Source: Zooshikella harenae (lineage in GTDB: Bacteria; Pseudomonadota; Gammaproteobacteria; Pseudomonadales; Zooshikellaceae). Taken from it: a stretch of DNA of 64,000 nucleotides. Below, piece after piece: positions 29,248 through 62,106 of the stretch. Each line of letters opens with the position of its first letter. Within the stretch, counting starts at the first letter, position 1. Location of the stretch: contig NZ_JAGSOY010000005.1 in the NCBI RefSeq assembly GCF_018837975.1, positions 62,001-126,000 of the forward strand, given 5' to 3'. A program made the position numbers and the translations under genes. The notes beneath the pieces were generated by a model. The model did not search any database. It was not told where the DNA came from and saw only the letters and a program-made list of their open reading frames with translations.

Positions 29248-29323
29248 TCCCCGATAGCTCAGTTGGTAGAGCAAATGACTGTTAATCATTGGGTCGCTGG
29301 TTCGAGTCCAGCTCGGGGAGCCA
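29248..29323 (+). tRNA. tRNA-Asn (anticodon GTT)
   Basis: A 76-nt cloverleaf with encoded CCA. The acceptor TCCCCGA pairs with TCGGGGA plus discriminator G; the T arm is CTGGTTCGAGTCCAG; the anticodon loop is CTGTTAA. Confidence 0.95.
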
Positions 29324-29328
29324 AATCA

Positions 29329-29405
29329 CGGGGTATAGCGCAGTCTGGTAGCGCGCCTGCTTTGGGAGCAGGATGTCGGGAGTTCGAATCTCTCTACCCC
29401 GACCA
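29329..29405 (+). tRNA. tRNA-Pro (anticodon TGG)
   Basis: A 77-nt cloverleaf with encoded CCA. The acceptor CGGGGTA pairs with TACCCCG and discriminator A; anticodon loop TTTGGGA with TGG at 29363-29365. It starts five bases after tRNA-Asn. Confidence 0.95.
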
Positions 29406-29410
29406 TTTTT

Positions 29411-29486
29411 GGGTCGTTAGCTCAGTCGGTAGAGCAGTTGGCTTTTAACCAATTGGTCGCAGGTTCGAATCCTGCACGACCCACCA
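29411..29486 (+). tRNA. tRNA-Lys (anticodon TTT)
   Basis: A 76-nt cloverleaf with encoded CCA. The acceptor GGGTCGT pairs with ACGACCC and discriminator A; anticodon loop CTTTTAA with TTT at 29444-29446. Last of three tightly spaced tRNAs; no clear terminator follows, only T-rich sequence. Confidence 0.95.
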
Positions 29487-48984: not shown

Positions 48985-49767
48985 ATGGATAATCAAGTAC
49001 CGTTAAAAAACAGTCATACTTTGCAGCCGATGACATCGGTAGATGATGAAATTTCTTTGACTGATATTGTTAAAGTATTAGTAATCCATTGGCGTTGGCT
49101 ATGTGGAATTACCTCTACAATTATTGCTGCAACATTAATAGTGGCTTTAATGAAACCCGATACATACAACTTTGTCAGTATTTATCAGTTAGCGAAACGG
49201 AGCTGGAGTGACTTCATTGAGCCTCCTGAAGCGCTTGTTCAGAAAGCAAATAGAGTTTACTACCCACAAGTATCTCGTGAGTTTACGCAACAATATCAAT
49301 TAACAGATTTACCCTTTAAGGTGTCTTTTCAGGCGTTAAAAGACACAGGCTTAATTATGATATCCAGTGATGCACGCCTAAGTGAGAAAGATAAAGTAAG
49401 GGCGTTTCATAAGATCATCGTTGACAAGATTCATGTTTCACAAACTGAAATGGTTGAACAGGCATCAAGGAGCATGAGACAACAAATATTGTCTGGGCAG
49501 AAAATGCTAGAGCAAGTTGAAGGTAATTCACAGTCGGCTAAGACAATGGAATTACTAATGAGAGTTTCTTCGCTAGAAAATCAGCTTAATGAATTACAAC
49601 CAGGTGCAATTATTGAGACAGCAACACAAAGTTTGAAGCCAAAGGGTATAAGTAAAATTGTTTTGATTATTATTGGTTGTTTGCTAGCGATTATGTTTGG
49701 AATGTTTGGGGCCTTTATTGTTGAGCTAGTTAATCGGGTACGTTTTAATTTATCTATGTCTACGTAG
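48985..49767 (+). CDS. Wzz-like chain-length determinant protein (orphan)
   Basis: A 260-residue polysaccharide co-polymerase-type protein. After a polar N-terminus, the Wzz domain begins at EISLTDIVKVLVIHWRW with TM1 (LCGITSTIIAATLIVALM), a periplasmic helical part with a coiled coil near 145-205, and TM2 (IVLIIIGCLLAIMFGMFGAFIVELV) with the short cytoplasmic end. The Pro-rich stretch usual before TM2 is short (KPKGISK). Wzz sets O-antigen length; this copy is distant from any O-antigen cluster, shorter than most, and stands alone between trxB and the gshB-like gene. Confidence 0.75.
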   Translation: MDNQVPLKNSHTLQPMTSVDDEISLTDIVKVLVIHWRWLCGITSTIIAATLIVALMKPDTYNFVSIYQLAKRSWSDFIEPPEALVQKANRVYYPQVSREFTQQYQLTDLPFKVSFQALKDTGLIMISSDARLSEKDKVRAFHKIIVDKIHVSQTEMVEQASRSMRQQILSGQKMLEQVEGNSQSAKTMELLMRVSSLENQLNELQPGAIIETATQSLKPKGISKIVLIIIGCLLAIMFGMFGAFIVELVNRVRFNLSMST

Positions 49768-50061: not shown

Positions 50062-51096
50062 GTGAAAATTTGTTTTCTTATGTATCCTTGGGAGCGTATT
50101 TCTCCTGAGACGGATACAACTCTGCGCTTGATACACGAAACAGTTAGTCGTGGTCACACGGTGGCCCTGACAACACCCAATAGTTTAACCATTCGTGATA
50201 ATACGGCGCATGCGTTTTGTAATGTATTTAAGAAAACGACAAAACTAACTGCAAATATTCCCAACTTTTATAAAACAGCAGACTTTAAACGGTCTAAATT
50301 ACCCTTAGCGGGTTTTGATGCCATTATTATGCGGGCAAATCCACCATTGGATACGGTAGCGTTAAACTTTTTAGATTCTGTTCGTGACGATACATTCATT
50401 ATGAATGATATTGATGGTCTGCGTATTGCTAATAATAAGCTGTATACAGCTTCTTTTAGTGGTGAGGCGCAAAAGTATATTCCTGTTACACATGTATCAA
50501 AGAGCCGAGAGTACTTAGAGCGTGTGTTGATGGAAAATGAAGCAGACCGAATGATTCTTAAACCACTCAATGGTTTTGGTGGCCAGGGTGTTATTGTAAT
50601 TGAAAAAAGGGCGCGGCAAAGCTTTCGCTCACTTTTGGATTTTTATATTGGCAGTGGTGATAAAAGCAATTATGTCATTCTGCAAGAGTTTGTAGAGGGT
50701 GCTGAAAACGGTGATGTGCGTATCCTAATGTTGAATGGTGAGCCTATAGGAGCCATGCGTCGTCGACCTGCAGAAAATGATGTGCGTTCAAATATACATG
50801 CGGGTGGTACTGAAATTAAACACGTTCTGAGCAAAGAAGAAAAAGCGTTATGTCTGGCAATAGGACCTAAACTGGCGCGTGATGGATTATTCTTTGCCGG
50901 GCTTGATGTCATCCATGGTAAGTTGATTGAGGTAAATGTATTAAGTCCTGGTGGAATTACACGTATTAATCGCCTTAATAGAACGAAGTTACAGAAGAAG
51001 GTAATCGACTTTGTGGAAAATGTGGTTTCTGCTAAAGAAATGATAGCACAGCGAAAAACTGAGTTTCGCAAGGTAATTGAAGATGCAGAAGCGTAG
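50062..51096 (+). CDS. GshB-like ATP-grasp ligase (glutathione-synthetase family)
   Basis: A 344-residue protein starting at GTG 50062, nine bases after GGAG. The C-terminal ATP-grasp fold is clear: KPLNGFGGQGVIVIEK (Gly-rich loop), VILQEFVEGAENGDVRILMLNGEPIGAMRR, the HAGGTEI loop and the metal-binding GLDVIHGKLIEVNVLSPGG. This mirrors GshB, which joins gamma-Glu-Cys to Gly, but it is about 30 residues longer and its gene overlaps the FGase-like/DUF1704 gene by 14 bp. It may therefore be a GshB paralogue ligating another peptide or amino acid. If the genome has no other gshB, it is the glutathione synthetase. Confidence 0.82.
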   Translation: MKICFLMYPWERISPETDTTLRLIHETVSRGHTVALTTPNSLTIRDNTAHAFCNVFKKTTKLTANIPNFYKTADFKRSKLPLAGFDAIIMRANPPLDTVALNFLDSVRDDTFIMNDIDGLRIANNKLYTASFSGEAQKYIPVTHVSKSREYLERVLMENEADRMILKPLNGFGGQGVIVIEKRARQSFRSLLDFYIGSGDKSNYVILQEFVEGAENGDVRILMLNGEPIGAMRRRPAENDVRSNIHAGGTEIKHVLSKEEKALCLAIGPKLARDGLFFAGLDVIHGKLIEVNVLSPGGITRINRLNRTKLQKKVIDFVENVVSAKEMIAQRKTEFRKVIEDAEA

Positions 51097-53146
51097 TGAA
51101 GCTGACATTATCAAGGCGATTAACGCAGGAGAACCCTTTGAGTGCAGTATTGAAGATGGCTCTTTTCTTATTAAAGTAGAGGATTATATCCCCTTTATTT
51201 GTACTGCAATTCATAACGGTTGTCAGCTACGTTCAGAGCTAGTAAACCGTTGCCTGCTGGATGAGGGGCAGCGTTATTTTGAGGAAGATCCCTATACAGG
51301 AGAGTTAATTCGGTCTTTGCCAATAACATTGGTGGCTTGTGACTCTCGTTATGAATACGACTTAAACCGTCCATTAGCGCAATGTGTCTATAAACGGGCA
51401 TGGGGATTAAAGGTTTGGCGTTCGCCATTAACGGATAAGCAGTGGCATCGAAGCACGGAAAAACACCGCCAATTTTATCGCATACTTGATGTATTAGTAG
51501 CAGCACTGGAACAACGTTTTGGTGCCTGTCTTGTATTTGATATTCACTCTTATAACAAAGGGCGACAACCTGATGATGCTCCAGTATTTAACTTGGGATT
51601 GGAGCAAGTGGATATGGATCGTTGGATGCCTGTTATAGAGCGTTATCAAAATAGTTTGCAAGCTTTGCAGTTACCTAACGTGAAGACAAGTGTCGAAATT
51701 AATCGGGTATTTTATGGGCGAGGATATATGATCGCCCATGTAAATAGCCGCTTTGAAAATACCTTGGTTATCCCTACTGAAATCAAAAAGGTATTTATGG
51801 ATGAAAAAAGTGGTGAGCTTTACCCATTAGTATTGCAGAGTTTAAGTGAAGGAATGAAGCATACTGTAGTTGATACGGCAGCATTTTTTTCGCGACGTTT
51901 TACACAAAAAAAACAAGCTAAGCGTAAGCATATGCTGGCAAGTTTAGTTGACCCTGCGATTAAGCGAGTTGATCGAGCGCTGCATCAGTTAGCTAAAGGG
52001 GTTAGCACTTTACATTATGTAAACCCCATTAACATTTCTCATGAAATGAAGCGATTTTTTTCGCATCGAACAAACTATCAACCTGATTTTACCTATCGGC
52101 AGCTGGCGATGGATCCTTACTTGCTAAGAGAAAAATTATATCGCTTACCTGTTGATGAAATTCGAGATGCTGGCATTCAACAACTGTATCGTGAGGTCAT
52201 TGATACCATTTCTATGAAGGTTGATCTGCTAGTAAGCATTGGTAGTGAACGTTTTATTTATAACTCTTTGCGTTACTATGGCGAGCCAGGTAAGCAGGAT
52301 ATTGATAATGCACGCTTTTTGCTTTATGCCCCTGCAATTGCTGAGCAGGAGGAGAATCTTGCTTATGAGGCTGAGCAGATGCGTGACATTTTGCAGGAAA
52401 AGGCTGCTGCTTGGGGGTTGAACTGTAAAGTTGAAACCAGCTCTCGCTTAGTGGCTGCGGCTATGGTGAGTAATGGGCGTCGTGCTTTACTGGTTCGTAA
52501 GGATGCTAGGGTAACGGCAACAGAATTACAGGCGTTAGCACATCATGAGTTGGGTGTTCATATGGTGACCACCTTGAATGCCAGTTTACAGCCATTAAAG
52601 GTGTTTTCACTGGGGCTTCCAGATAACACATTAACTCAAGAAGGGTTGGCGATTTTGAGTGAGCATTTATCAGGGAATTTAACTTTAAAACGTCTGAAGA
52701 TGCTTGCGCTTCGTGTGCTTGCTGTTGAGCAAATGCTACTTTACCGGGATTTTCGTCATACTTGGCTGTATTTGACTGAAGAGCATCATATGAAGCCTGA
52801 TGAGGCATTTCGTTTAACGACCCGTGTTCATCGTGGCGGAGGCTTTACTAAAGATTATTTGTATTTACAAGGTCTTTGTCAGGCTTTGCAACTCCATAAA
52901 AAGCAACCTATTCGTAACTTATTTATTGGTAAAACAGGTTTTCGTTTCTTACCCATTATCAATGAAATGATAGAGCGGGGTATGGCTAAAAAGCCGGAGT
53001 GGTTACCTGAGTTTCTCTCTAGTCCTGTGGAAGCAGGTCCTGTAATGGACTACCTATTGCAGTCCATTCAGCCTTTTGATGTCAACAGGCATCAAGCAAC
53101 AATGATGATGCCAAAAGTAACAAGTGAGATCAGACAAGCTATTTAG
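51083..53146 (+). CDS. FGase-like / DUF1704 (QEGLA) fusion protein, putative metallocarboxypeptidase
   Basis: ATG 51083 is favoured over a TTG at 51077. The 687-residue protein has two parts. Residues 1-270 resemble N-formylglutamate amidohydrolases (DSRYEYDLNRP, LVFDIHSYN). Residues about 300-680 are DUF1704, the flavohemoglobin-expression-modulating QEGLA family: HHELGVH gives an HEXXXH zinc motif (H488, E489, H493) and TQEGLA supplies Glu520 as the likely third ligand. Eukaryotic relatives with the same HEXXXH motif (MATCAP) remove C-terminal tyrosine from tubulin, which suggests carboxypeptidase activity here. The ATP-grasp ligase upstream overlaps it, so one enzyme may attach what the other removes. 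No signal peptide. Confidence 0.85.
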   Translation: MQKRSEADIIKAINAGEPFECSIEDGSFLIKVEDYIPFICTAIHNGCQLRSELVNRCLLDEGQRYFEEDPYTGELIRSLPITLVACDSRYEYDLNRPLAQCVYKRAWGLKVWRSPLTDKQWHRSTEKHRQFYRILDVLVAALEQRFGACLVFDIHSYNKGRQPDDAPVFNLGLEQVDMDRWMPVIERYQNSLQALQLPNVKTSVEINRVFYGRGYMIAHVNSRFENTLVIPTEIKKVFMDEKSGELYPLVLQSLSEGMKHTVVDTAAFFSRRFTQKKQAKRKHMLASLVDPAIKRVDRALHQLAKGVSTLHYVNPINISHEMKRFFSHRTNYQPDFTYRQLAMDPYLLREKLYRLPVDEIRDAGIQQLYREVIDTISMKVDLLVSIGSERFIYNSLRYYGEPGKQDIDNARFLLYAPAIAEQEENLAYEAEQMRDILQEKAAAWGLNCKVETSSRLVAAAMVSNGRRALLVRKDARVTATELQALAHHELGVHMVTTLNASLQPLKVFSLGLPDNTLTQEGLAILSEHLSGNLTLKRLKMLALRVLAVEQMLLYRDFRHTWLYLTEEHHMKPDEAFRLTTRVHRGGGFTKDYLYLQGLCQALQLHKKQPIRNLFIGKTGFRFLPIINEMIERGMAKKPEWLPEFLSSPVEAGPVMDYLLQSIQPFDVNRHQATMMMPKVTSEIRQAI

Positions 53147-53612
53147 CTGGCTGTGGTTGTATTGGTTGTTGTAAGCCAAACTCCTCTGACAACGTCCCTT
53201 TTTCATCGGGTGTTGATTTAGGGGCATAGTCTTTGGGAGGCGTTAATAAGGTATCGTCACTCTTTTCACGACTCTCAGGCTCAGGAGATAAAGTTTGGCT
53301 GGCTAATAATGTATCAGTAAGCTGGTGAGATGCTGTTGGATCTTGACTCAGTGTAGCTGCACTATTTGCCATATGTGCTTGTAAGTCTTTATAAGCATCT
53401 GTGACACGATTAAATAGTTGTGCTGTTTGATTGAAATGCTCATCTAGTTCTTGTTGGTGTTTTTGCATTTGCTTTTCCATGGCGGATAGCTTTGCTTCTA
53501 GCTGGCTCCGCTCTCCGCCGCCAGTTGAGGCTCGATACAGCCAAGCACCAATAATCGAGCCTATGACAAAGCTAATACAGCTGGCAAGCCAAAGATTCTC
53601 TGTCAGTTCCAT
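53139..53612 (-). CDS. zapG: Cell-division/envelope protein ZapG (YhcB, DUF1043)
   Basis: Start ATG 53612 follows GAGAGGGG; the frame could extend six codons to a GTG. The 157-residue protein has one N-terminal membrane helix (LWLASCISFVIGSIIGAWLY), a coiled coil (about 35-85; QLEAKLSAMEKQMQKHQQEL, then NRVTDAYKDLQAHM) and a disordered polar tail, the DUF1043 pattern. YhcB/ZapG links the divisome and peptidoglycan synthesis in enterobacteria. It overlaps the convergent DUF1704 gene by 8 bp and is divergent from zapE, an arrangement conserved across gammaproteobacteria. Confidence 0.88.
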   Translation of the reverse strand: MELTENLWLASCISFVIGSIIGAWLYRASTGGGERSQLEAKLSAMEKQMQKHQQELDEHFNQTAQLFNRVTDAYKDLQAHMANSAATLSQDPTASHQLTDTLLASQTLSPEPESREKSDDTLLTPPKDYAPKSTPDEKGTLSEEFGLQQPIQPQPAK

Positions 53613-53906
53613 GTTGTTTTCCCCTCTCACTTGATACTGAAGTTAAATTTATTCAAGCAAGATTTGTGCAGATTTAGTGTTAATTGTGTTTCAGGTATTA
53701 TGACATTGTAGTGACCAACCCAGGTTTCATCGAGTTTTCACTAAGTTGCCATTTATGGGTTTGGCCATTAAAGTTTCCTATCTTACAGCGACATTAAACA
53801 CATAAAGGGGGGTATATCGCAAGCCTCCGTAATATTCGCTGACAGTATTTGAGTACAACTGATTGTGCCATTTACTTAGAAGTAGAAAAAACTAAGAGAA
53901 TTTATC

Positions 53907-61532: not shown

Positions 61533-62106
61533 AATCAGTGTAATCGAAAATCTTAACTATTTTTTGTACGCCATAAGCTGTACGGCTAATGTCTACTGCA
61601 TGGCGAGCCACAGACTGACTGACTTTTCCCATTAGGTAAACAATACCATTTTCTGTCACGATTTTTATTTTGCCTGCTGGAAAGTTCTTTTCAGCAAGCA
61701 TTTTGGTTTTGATTTTTGAGGTTAGCCAGCTGTCATTACTGCGAATTAAAAATGTAGTAGCTGGGCCAATTTCTAGCTCATTGTAGACACGTCGTACTTT
61801 TTTCACATTACGAGCAACATCACCCGTGAGGCTACGGAGTCGTTCATTCGCGACTTGCCCTGTTAATAAGACAATACCGTCATAACTGGTTACTACAATA
61901 TGCGAGTGTTCCAGTGCTGGATCAGCTTTGGCAATATTGACCTGGGTAACCGTTTCAATGGTGTTGTCATCGACCCAATCACCCATTGTGCGCGTGCTTT
62001 TGTCTTGCTGAATGGGACCATCATTGGTTGCTTTTAGAATTGGGGTACATGCTGTAGAGAAAGTAATCAGGTTGATTAAAAGGAACCATAAGATAGGATT
62101 TTTCAT
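61531..62106 (-). CDS. dolP: BON-domain outer-membrane lipoprotein DolP (YraP)
   Basis: Start ATG 62106 with GGAG upstream; an in-frame start six codons earlier is less likely. The 191-residue lipoprotein has lipobox FSTAC and two BON domains (about 45-115, ...HIVVTSYDGIVLLTGQV; and about 122-190, KIVTENGIVYLMGKV). DolP supports outer-membrane integrity and BAM function by binding anionic lipids. Its gene follows diaA by 20 bp, as in the E. coli yraMNOP order. Confidence 0.92.
   Translation of the reverse strand: MKNPILWFLLINLITFSTACTPILKATNDGPIQQDKSTRTMGDWVDDNTIETVTQVNIAKADPALEHSHIVVTSYDGIVLLTGQVANERLRSLTGDVARNVKKVRRVYNELEIGPATTFLIRSNDSWLTSKIKTKMLAEKNFPAGKIKIVTENGIVYLMGKVSQSVARHAVDISRTAYGVQKIVKIFDYTD

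Follow-up and report, generated by a model that had tools for sequence, protein, structure and literature searches.

The window analysed here, a stretch of 64,000 nucleotides from Zooshikella harenae (positions 62,001 to 126,000 of contig NZ_JAGSOY010000005.1), carries two overlapping genes on its forward strand (Table 1). The upstream gene encodes an ATP-grasp ligase that resembles glutathione synthetase (GshB), and the downstream gene a protein that joins a domain related to N-formylglutamate amidohydrolase (FGase) to a DUF1704 domain. A preliminary description of this DNA had proposed both assignments together with an overlap of 14 bp. The coordinates of the open reading frames agree with this overlap, the ligase is matched by the Pfam families GSH-S_N (86 bits) and GSH-S_ATP (179 bits), and the fusion protein passes the Pfam cut-offs for FGase (62.6 bits, cut-off 28.9) and MATCAP (PF08014; 333.6 bits, cut-off 27) as well as that of TIGR02421 (391.6 bits, cut-off 338.65). 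Relatives of the fusion protein are annotated as 'flavohemoglobin expression-modulating QEGLA motif protein', a name that reportedly stems from Pseudomonas fhp work. The residues H488, E489, H493 and E520, which had been singled out in DUF1704, are found as claimed, with HELGVH starting at residue 488 and QEGLA at residue 519 of the 687-residue form.

The frame of the fusion gene is open from a TTG at 51077 (689 amino acids) and yields 687 amino acids from the ATG at 51083, with the stop at 53146. Homologues begin at or near the equivalent of this ATG, and residues are numbered accordingly. Judged by eye, a GGAG nine bases 5' of the GTG start of the ligase gene and an AAGG 5' of the fusion-gene ATG, within the ligase gene, fit ribosome binding.

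Table 1 Features of the ligase and fusion gene pair (positions in the window)
Feature	Position	Strand	Remarks
GshB/RimK-type ATP-grasp ligase, PRK12458/NF009110 subfamily	50062..51096	+	GTG start, 344 aa
FGase-DUF1704 fusion protein	51083..53146	+	687 aa from ATG 51083
Gene overlap, 14 bp	51083..51096	+	from ORF (open reading frame) coordinates
FGase domain	51191..51787	+	Pfam residues 39-237 (689-aa frame), 37-235 (687-aa form)
DUF1704/MATCAP domain	52049..53062	+	Pfam residues 325-662 (689-aa frame), 323-660 (687-aa form)

The ligase accompanies FGase-associated DUF1704 proteins in two gene layouts

A survey of DUF1704 for co-occurring GshB-like ligases, as suggested in the preliminary description, revealed a near-universal association for proteins of the FGase type. 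Among 274 genomes of the class, DUF1704 was present in 39 and a PRK12458-like ligase, called at E values up to 1e-75, in 14. Thirteen of the 39 genomes have an FGase-associated DUF1704, and in 12 of these the ligase is present, always as the adjoining gene; the only FGase-type genome without it, G105, has match coordinates identical to those of G311, the Coxiellaceae bin with locus L142, and appears to be one and the same genome. None of the 25 genomes with a short DUF1704 protein has the ligase, and no FGase match occurred in the 21 loci opened from 20 of them, the other five being classed by frame length and a broken copy (G027) being excluded. The source genome has one DUF1704 match and one FGase match, both to the fusion protein described here, and a second Zooshikella species also has a DUF1704 protein.

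A scan of GTDB genomes matched at least 593 stretches, of which we kept the best 80, those closest to the window protein and hence not a random sample. Three of them are cut by contig ends; in 72 of the remaining 77 informative loci the ligase gene lies directly upstream of the fusion gene, and the two genes overlap in 59 of the 70 loci that were measured. Because of this constancy, the coupling of ligase and fusion protein is not due to chance. By record title, ligase-bearing loci belong to Gammaproteobacteria, Bacteroidota, Clostridiales, Planctomycetota, Verrucomicrobiales, Nitrospirota and Bacteriovoracaceae; a large share are metagenome bins, whose single placements are unsure. A conserved third gene was not apparent, as no additional protein cluster exceeded 16 of 84 loci. 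The neighbours encountered were a LysR-type regulator (16/84) and DUF413/MaoP (12/84), mainly in some gammaproteobacteria, and an aminotransferase (10/84). A role in anti-phage defence was considered and dropped, as PADLOC gave no match at E 0.01.

In the second layout, an FGase gene, a gene for a DUF1704 protein and the ligase gene follow each other closely as three separate genes. The class survey contributed nine such loci (L038-L046), in one of which (L042) the FGase frame stops early, and rhizobial plasmids show this arrangement as well. The N-terminus of the second-type DUF1704 protein is blank in Pfam, matches an FGase profile (probability 95%, E 2.9e-8, 141 columns) and has no D-x-H motif in seven aligned rows; judged from its sequence, it is a degenerate FGase domain. 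As the second type holds FGase, DUF1704 and ligase as separate genes, the same three active parts are kept in both layouts. The trio is also present on pSymB of Sinorhizobium meliloti (L185:7893-11673). Strain R14 and Pararhizobium have the three genes adjacent to each other, pSymB of strain 2011 gave a tblastn match, and matches to the fusion protein were found on 127 plasmid records, 79 of them of Sinorhizobium. Two second-type loci have tandem ligase genes (L038:1835-3980 and L172:4886-6992); the second L038 copy is devoid of several otherwise conserved ATP-grasp residues, which suggests that it may serve as a pseudo-enzyme partner.

Predicted folds and conserved residues of the two proteins

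The AlphaFold2 model of the ligase (predicted local distance difference test score, pLDDT, 90.3) has as its top solved match the glutathione synthetase of Escherichia coli (1gsa; Z 34.0, root-mean-square deviation (rmsd) 2.2, 307 aligned residues). Next in structural similarity to GshB come the RimK enzymes (Z 25-26), a family of glutamate ligases (PMC10092738), and ArgX/LysX follow at Z about 24. At the level of sequence models, the ligase passes PRK12458/NF009110 (455.4 bits, cut-off 408), which some second-layout ligases miss (389 and 357 bits). It fails the glutathione synthase equivalog TIGR01380 (225.9 bits, cut-off 299.05) and the RimK models PRK10446 (60.8 bits, cut-off 331) and TIGR00768 (81.0 bits, cut-off 143.4).

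Across 41 ligases from the two layouts, the ATP-grasp residues K126, K167, D282, E290 and N292 never vary. The loop that follows E290-x-N292 reads SPGG in 11 of 12 window-type and seven of eight second-type ligases, and SPTC in five of six canonical GshB proteins. Likewise, position 297 is T or M in all six canonical GshB and G in all 20 pair ligases, and position 300 is R in the former (6/6) and in none of the latter (0/20). A midpoint-rooted tree, in which bootstrap values had not settled, separates the ligases of the window layout (support 98/98) from those of the second layout (96/93), and places both apart from the six canonical GshB (100/100) and from five RimK or RimK-like proteins (100/100). 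Published poly-glutamate contacts were of no use for discriminating RimK- from GshB-type acceptors: the positions to which our own alignment maps them in the window ligase, R91, R220 and N292, are common to GshB, RimK and the pair ligases.

In the model of the fusion protein (pLDDT 92.6), the DUF1704 half matches human MATCAP (7z5g; Z 26.3, rmsd 2.9, 299 aligned, 21% identity) and, at lower rank, DUF885 proteins and M32 carboxypeptidases. The FGase half matches the FGase-family structures 2q7s (Z 25.4, rmsd 2.3, 236 aligned) and 2odf (Z 22.1), followed at lower rank by M14 carboxypeptidases (Z about 10.5-12.3). In these models, both halves resemble carboxypeptidase-like hydrolases, a likeness of fold that alone does not establish function.

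To follow the putative catalytic residues, we aligned 69 fusion proteins, namely those of 67 of the 80 scan loci, the window and L035. Loci L079, L081, L084, L085, L086, L093, L094 and L117 were dropped as presumed near-copies, L124 and L145 because of contig ends, and L141, L147 and L149 because of inconsistent frames. The DUF1704 residues H488, E489, H493 and E520 are intact in all 69 rows, so that no metal ligand has been lost, a point on which the preliminary description had staked its proposal. The conserved set of the FGase domain comprises H44, E68, R89, N95-R96, D153-x-H155, E233 and K236. Here, H44, E68, R89, N95, D153 and K236 are invariant, while H155 is kept in 68 and E233 in 65 of the 69 proteins. 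By analogy to M14 enzymes, we take H44, E68 and H155 to be metal ligands, N95-R96 to bind a carboxylate and E233 to act as general base. The equivalog model for HutG, TIGR02017, gave no match to the window protein at E 0.1, and L035 reaches 19 bits against a cut-off of 278.75.

The pair ligase is unlikely to be the glutathione synthase of its host

If the ligase were the only GshB of its genome, it might simply make glutathione. This reading is ruled out by a separate canonical gshB in the source genome (contig C1, a frame of 323 residues scoring 254.6 bits), which also has a class-I gshA located apart from the pair; the check for another gshB, already recommended on the basis of the sequence, thus showed that the ligase is not the only one. 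Across 42 scan genomes, 30 are without class-I gshA, and 27 of these are also without GCS2. In 24 of the 42, the pair ligase is present together with neither a canonical GshB (E 1e-20) nor gshA of types 1 or 2, type 3 not having been searched and bins possibly being incomplete; G280, G311 and G301, which have no pair ligase, were left out of the 24. In G280 (L090) and G311 (L142), a canonical gshB is present and neither type 1 nor type 2 gshA was found, type 3 again being outside the search.

The annotated function, an ordinary second glutathione synthetase accompanied by glutathione-degrading enzymes, can draw on the NCBIfam name of the subfamily ('glutathione synthetase') and on borderline scores with the GshB equivalog PRK05246/NF003573 (cut-off 272), for which the window ligase reaches 270.4 bits and its L035 orthologue 277.5 bits. 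A transcriptome study of Photobacterium damselae also took the gene as GshB (PMC10308900). Against this stand the separate gshB and gshA genes, the 24 genomes with neither, the TIGR01380 score well below cut-off, the SPGG loop in place of SPTC and the separate clades in the tree. Taken together, these findings make it unlikely that the pair ligase is a glutathione synthase, and the annotated scheme as a whole appears very improbable to us.

The same study provides the only physiological clue. In P. damselae RM-71 grown at 1% compared to 3% NaCl, 'GshB' (RS17020) was reported to be upregulated 38.4-fold, the QEGLA protein RS17025 27.5-fold and RimK 52-fold (PMC10308900). Since the two locus tags are consecutive and the type strain has the same layout (L095), RS17020 would be the pair ligase rather than the canonical gshB; in the type strain (G281), canonical gshB is located on another contig than the pair. 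The clue is one of low-salinity induction in Photobacterium.

FGase residues are often changed where the ligase is missing

Five informative loci (L090, L104, L123, L142 and L150) have the fusion gene without the ligase. In three of these rows the FGase set H44/E68/H155/E233 is changed (E233V, E233A and H155R) while DUF1704 is intact, compared to 61 of 62 ligase-bearing rows with an intact set, the exception being a conservative E233D in L109 (Fisher p 8e-4, with sites picked after the data had been seen). In a quick tree with partly poor support, the three changed loci fall on different branches. A further case, met after the idea of FGase dependence was formed, is Vibrio sp. HDW18 (L186:4530-6956), which keeps the LysR gene, maoP and the fusion gene, and in which FGase carries H155Y and D69A with an intact DUF1704; no ligase was found in the 11.95 kb around the fusion gene, the rest of the genome lying outside this search. 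With HDW18 added, the FGase set is changed in four of six ligase-less and one of 62 ligase-bearing rows (p 9e-5).

When searches were extended to whole genomes, L090, L104, L142, L150 and L128 were found to come from genomes without such a ligase, and the FGase set is changed in three of these five; the same absence applies to the genome of L145, whose row is outside the alignment. L123 comes from a genome that encodes another ligase, of the second type. At L112, located at a contig edge, E233 is replaced by G and, by eye, no ligase frame is present in the 176 bases upstream; its genome has a ligase at another locus, where no fusion gene was found. FGase often loses catalytic residues at loci devoid of the ligase, a correlation that supports a dependence of FGase, but not of DUF1704, on the ligase. 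Our reading is that FGase may work on the ligase product or within the ligase cycle and that DUF1704 would have a use of its own. The latter agrees with the existence of DUF1704 proteins that stand without FGase.

Some related loci lie next to RimK and RimB genes

At E 1e-40, the source genome gave no RimK orthologue, and RimK as an obligate partner was discarded, as 34 of 43 genomes had no such match. Nevertheless, the ligase-less fusion genes of L090 and L104 lie beside RimB and RimK, the FGase-less DUF1704 genes of L058 and L059 occur with RimK and RimB, and L109 has a RimK-like gene nearby. When loci were searched with RimB (E 1e-5), the sole matches were in L058, L059, L090 and L104, and there was none in L048, the 18-kb stretch of the window. 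This proximity, although not a rule, hints at biology shared between RimK and the pair. At L174 (5020-9991), a lone PRK12458-type ligase gene is closely lined up with genes for CorA, a channel of the MscS type, RimK and an AstE/AspA-like hydrolase; at L090, MgtE, RimB, RimK and AstE/AspA adjoin the fusion gene.

A possible write/erase cycle on a carboxyl-terminal peptide bond

The folds, the intact conserved active-site residues, the pairing and the GshB-unlike loop in all compared members were computed directly. They are best accommodated by a write/erase cycle that acts on a carboxyl-terminal peptide bond, a reading that we judge evenly poised between right and wrong. The ATP-grasp ligase would spend ATP to add an amino acid to the carboxyl group of a peptide acceptor, which may be the tail of a protein or else a small peptide; that the added amino acid would be glutamate, as for RimK, is a guess. 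The fused protein would reverse the ligation by means of two separate metal centres: FGase, with its M14-carboxypeptidase-like fold and N-R carboxylate-binding motif, would take off the residue added by the ligase, and DUF1704, as a putative MATCAP-type carboxypeptidase, would trim a C-terminal residue before or after this step. Translational coupling may hold writer and eraser in step. We infer the direction of the reaction, the use of glutamate and the cycle itself; for eukaryotic MATCAP/TMCP enzymes, cleavage of C-terminal Tyr and Glu, including that of tubulin tails, has been reported from experiments (PMC10499314). The preliminary description had envisaged a reversible addition to a peptide, a protein C-terminus or a small thiol. 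Its cycle remains the best-supported reading, strengthened by the changed FGase residues at ligase-less loci, and its small-thiol branch is weakened by the 24 of 42 genomes in which the ligase occurs without canonical GshB or gshA types 1 and 2. Going further, the pair might modify the C-terminus of a conserved bacterial protein upon osmotic change, as a widespread, undescribed prokaryotic counterpart of the tubulin code; we regard this extension as speculative and rather unlikely.

Several observations weigh against such a cycle. Structurally, the ligase is nearer to GshB than to RimK, which favours a small peptide as acceptor, and RimK, the suspected cousin, occurs in only nine of 43 genomes (E 1e-40). 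Two genomes, G192 and G210, have the ligase without DUF1704. The general base and metal ligands of FGase are putative, being assigned by analogy. The four FGase residues are kept in the ligase-less L123 and L150, as well as in L128. The FGase comparison is further weakened by deviations in other conserved columns: L090, L104, L123, L142 and L150 deviate in 7, 5, 0, 7 and 7 of 48 FGase columns, and the same rows also deviate in 2, 3, 1, 1 and 3 of 62 DUF1704 columns, both excesses being nominally significant (p 0.002 and p 0.007, respectively) for columns that were set from ligase-bearing rows only and so favour a difference by construction. Finally, action of the ligase and the hydrolases on the same bond, like the acceptor and the product, is a proposal only.

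The main rival, which we consider quite possible although short of probable, is a cycle of small molecules. Here, the ligase would make a soluble N-acyl or gamma-glutamyl peptide, such as an osmolyte, a store or a thiol-like compound other than glutathione, from which DUF1704 would take the C-terminal residue and FGase the N-acyl or glutamyl group, making the fusion protein a complete breakdown path. Relatives of FGase, AstE and AspA act on N-acyl amino acids, the ligase is closest to GshB, and the RimK clusters near a few related loci hold AstE_AspA, MscS, CorA or MgtE genes. The strong induction at 1% compared to 3% NaCl in P. damselae points in the same direction (PMC10308900). However, ligase and hydrolase are both induced at low salt, as one would expect of a cycle more than of the mere removal of an osmolyte, and no other gene is generally conserved beside the pair, so the acceptor must be widely available. 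Alternatively, the proteins might serve maturation, with the hydrolases clipping a precursor or protein tail first and the ligase capping the new end once. Fixed pairing and coupling of the genes are in line with this, as is the exposure of new C-termini by enzymes of the MATCAP type (PMC10499314). Making and breaking accounts better for the presence of two distinct hydrolases and for the dependence of FGase on the ligase, and we think maturation improbable. It is the write/erase cycle that we compare to known systems below.

Relation to known systems

The pair appears to work like RimK/RimB and like the TTLL/CCP/TMCP enzymes, by analogy, and to be a member of neither group. As in RimK/RimB, an ATP-grasp amino-acid ligase of related fold (Z 25-26) would be joined by a dedicated peptidase, and RimK genes lie beside L090, L104, L174, L058 and L059, with a RimK-like gene in L109. 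However, the pair ligase belongs to the GshB branch, far under the RimK cut-offs, and its erasers would be two metallo-hydrolases, whereas RimB is a retropepsin, of which the RimB query (E 1e-5) found none beside the window ligase. With the enzymes of tubulin tails, TTL/TTLL, CCP (M14) and TMCP/MATCAP, the pair shares the same three fold classes, TTLL ligases having the ATP-grasp fold. In contrast to these, the system is encoded in bacteria by two genes, of which one is a fusion, the ligase is not a TTL, FGase is only a distant M14 relative and there is no tubulin.

The single parts compare in a similar way. The ligase shares fold and ATP site with E. coli-type GshB, but forms a separate clade with another substrate loop, fails TIGR01380 and co-exists with a canonical gshB. 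FGase has the domain family (PF05013) and fold of HutG, but is fused to DUF1704 and lacks a TIGR02017 match at the threshold given above. The FGase-less TIGR02421 'QEGLA' proteins also have a DUF1704 with HExxxH and QEG, but their frames are short and they occur without the PRK12458 ligase in all 25 genomes.

Among the papers listed in a literature search, none described the pair, though Iyer et al. 2009 (amidoligases) could cover its neighbourhood; on DUF1704/QEGLA, the search returned nothing about the function of the bacterial protein, and it turned up no assay of a bacterial MATCAP-type enzyme. Two uninformatively or misleadingly named families, the PRK12458 'glutathione synthetase' and the 'QEGLA motif protein', appear to be the halves of one multi-phylum system. 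The published transcriptome reads the low-salt induction of the ligase as glutathione metabolism (PMC10308900). If the write/erase cycle holds true, MATCAP-type carboxypeptidases, the eukaryotic enzymes of tubulin tails, would have relatives in bacteria that are served by a dedicated ligase, and the function of bacterial DUF1704 would become testable in laboratory strains.

Neighbouring features of the window

A ZapG-like gene (53139-53630, minus strand; PF06295, 75.7 bits) is convergent with the fusion gene and shares its last 8 bases. Just upstream of the ligase gene, a lone 260-residue protein resembling Wzz/chain-length determinants is encoded at 48985-49767 (plus strand; 19 bits in Pfam, below the cut-off of 25.5). 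Elsewhere in the window, a tight cluster of tRNA genes for Asn, Pro and Lys is located at 29248-29486 on the plus strand.

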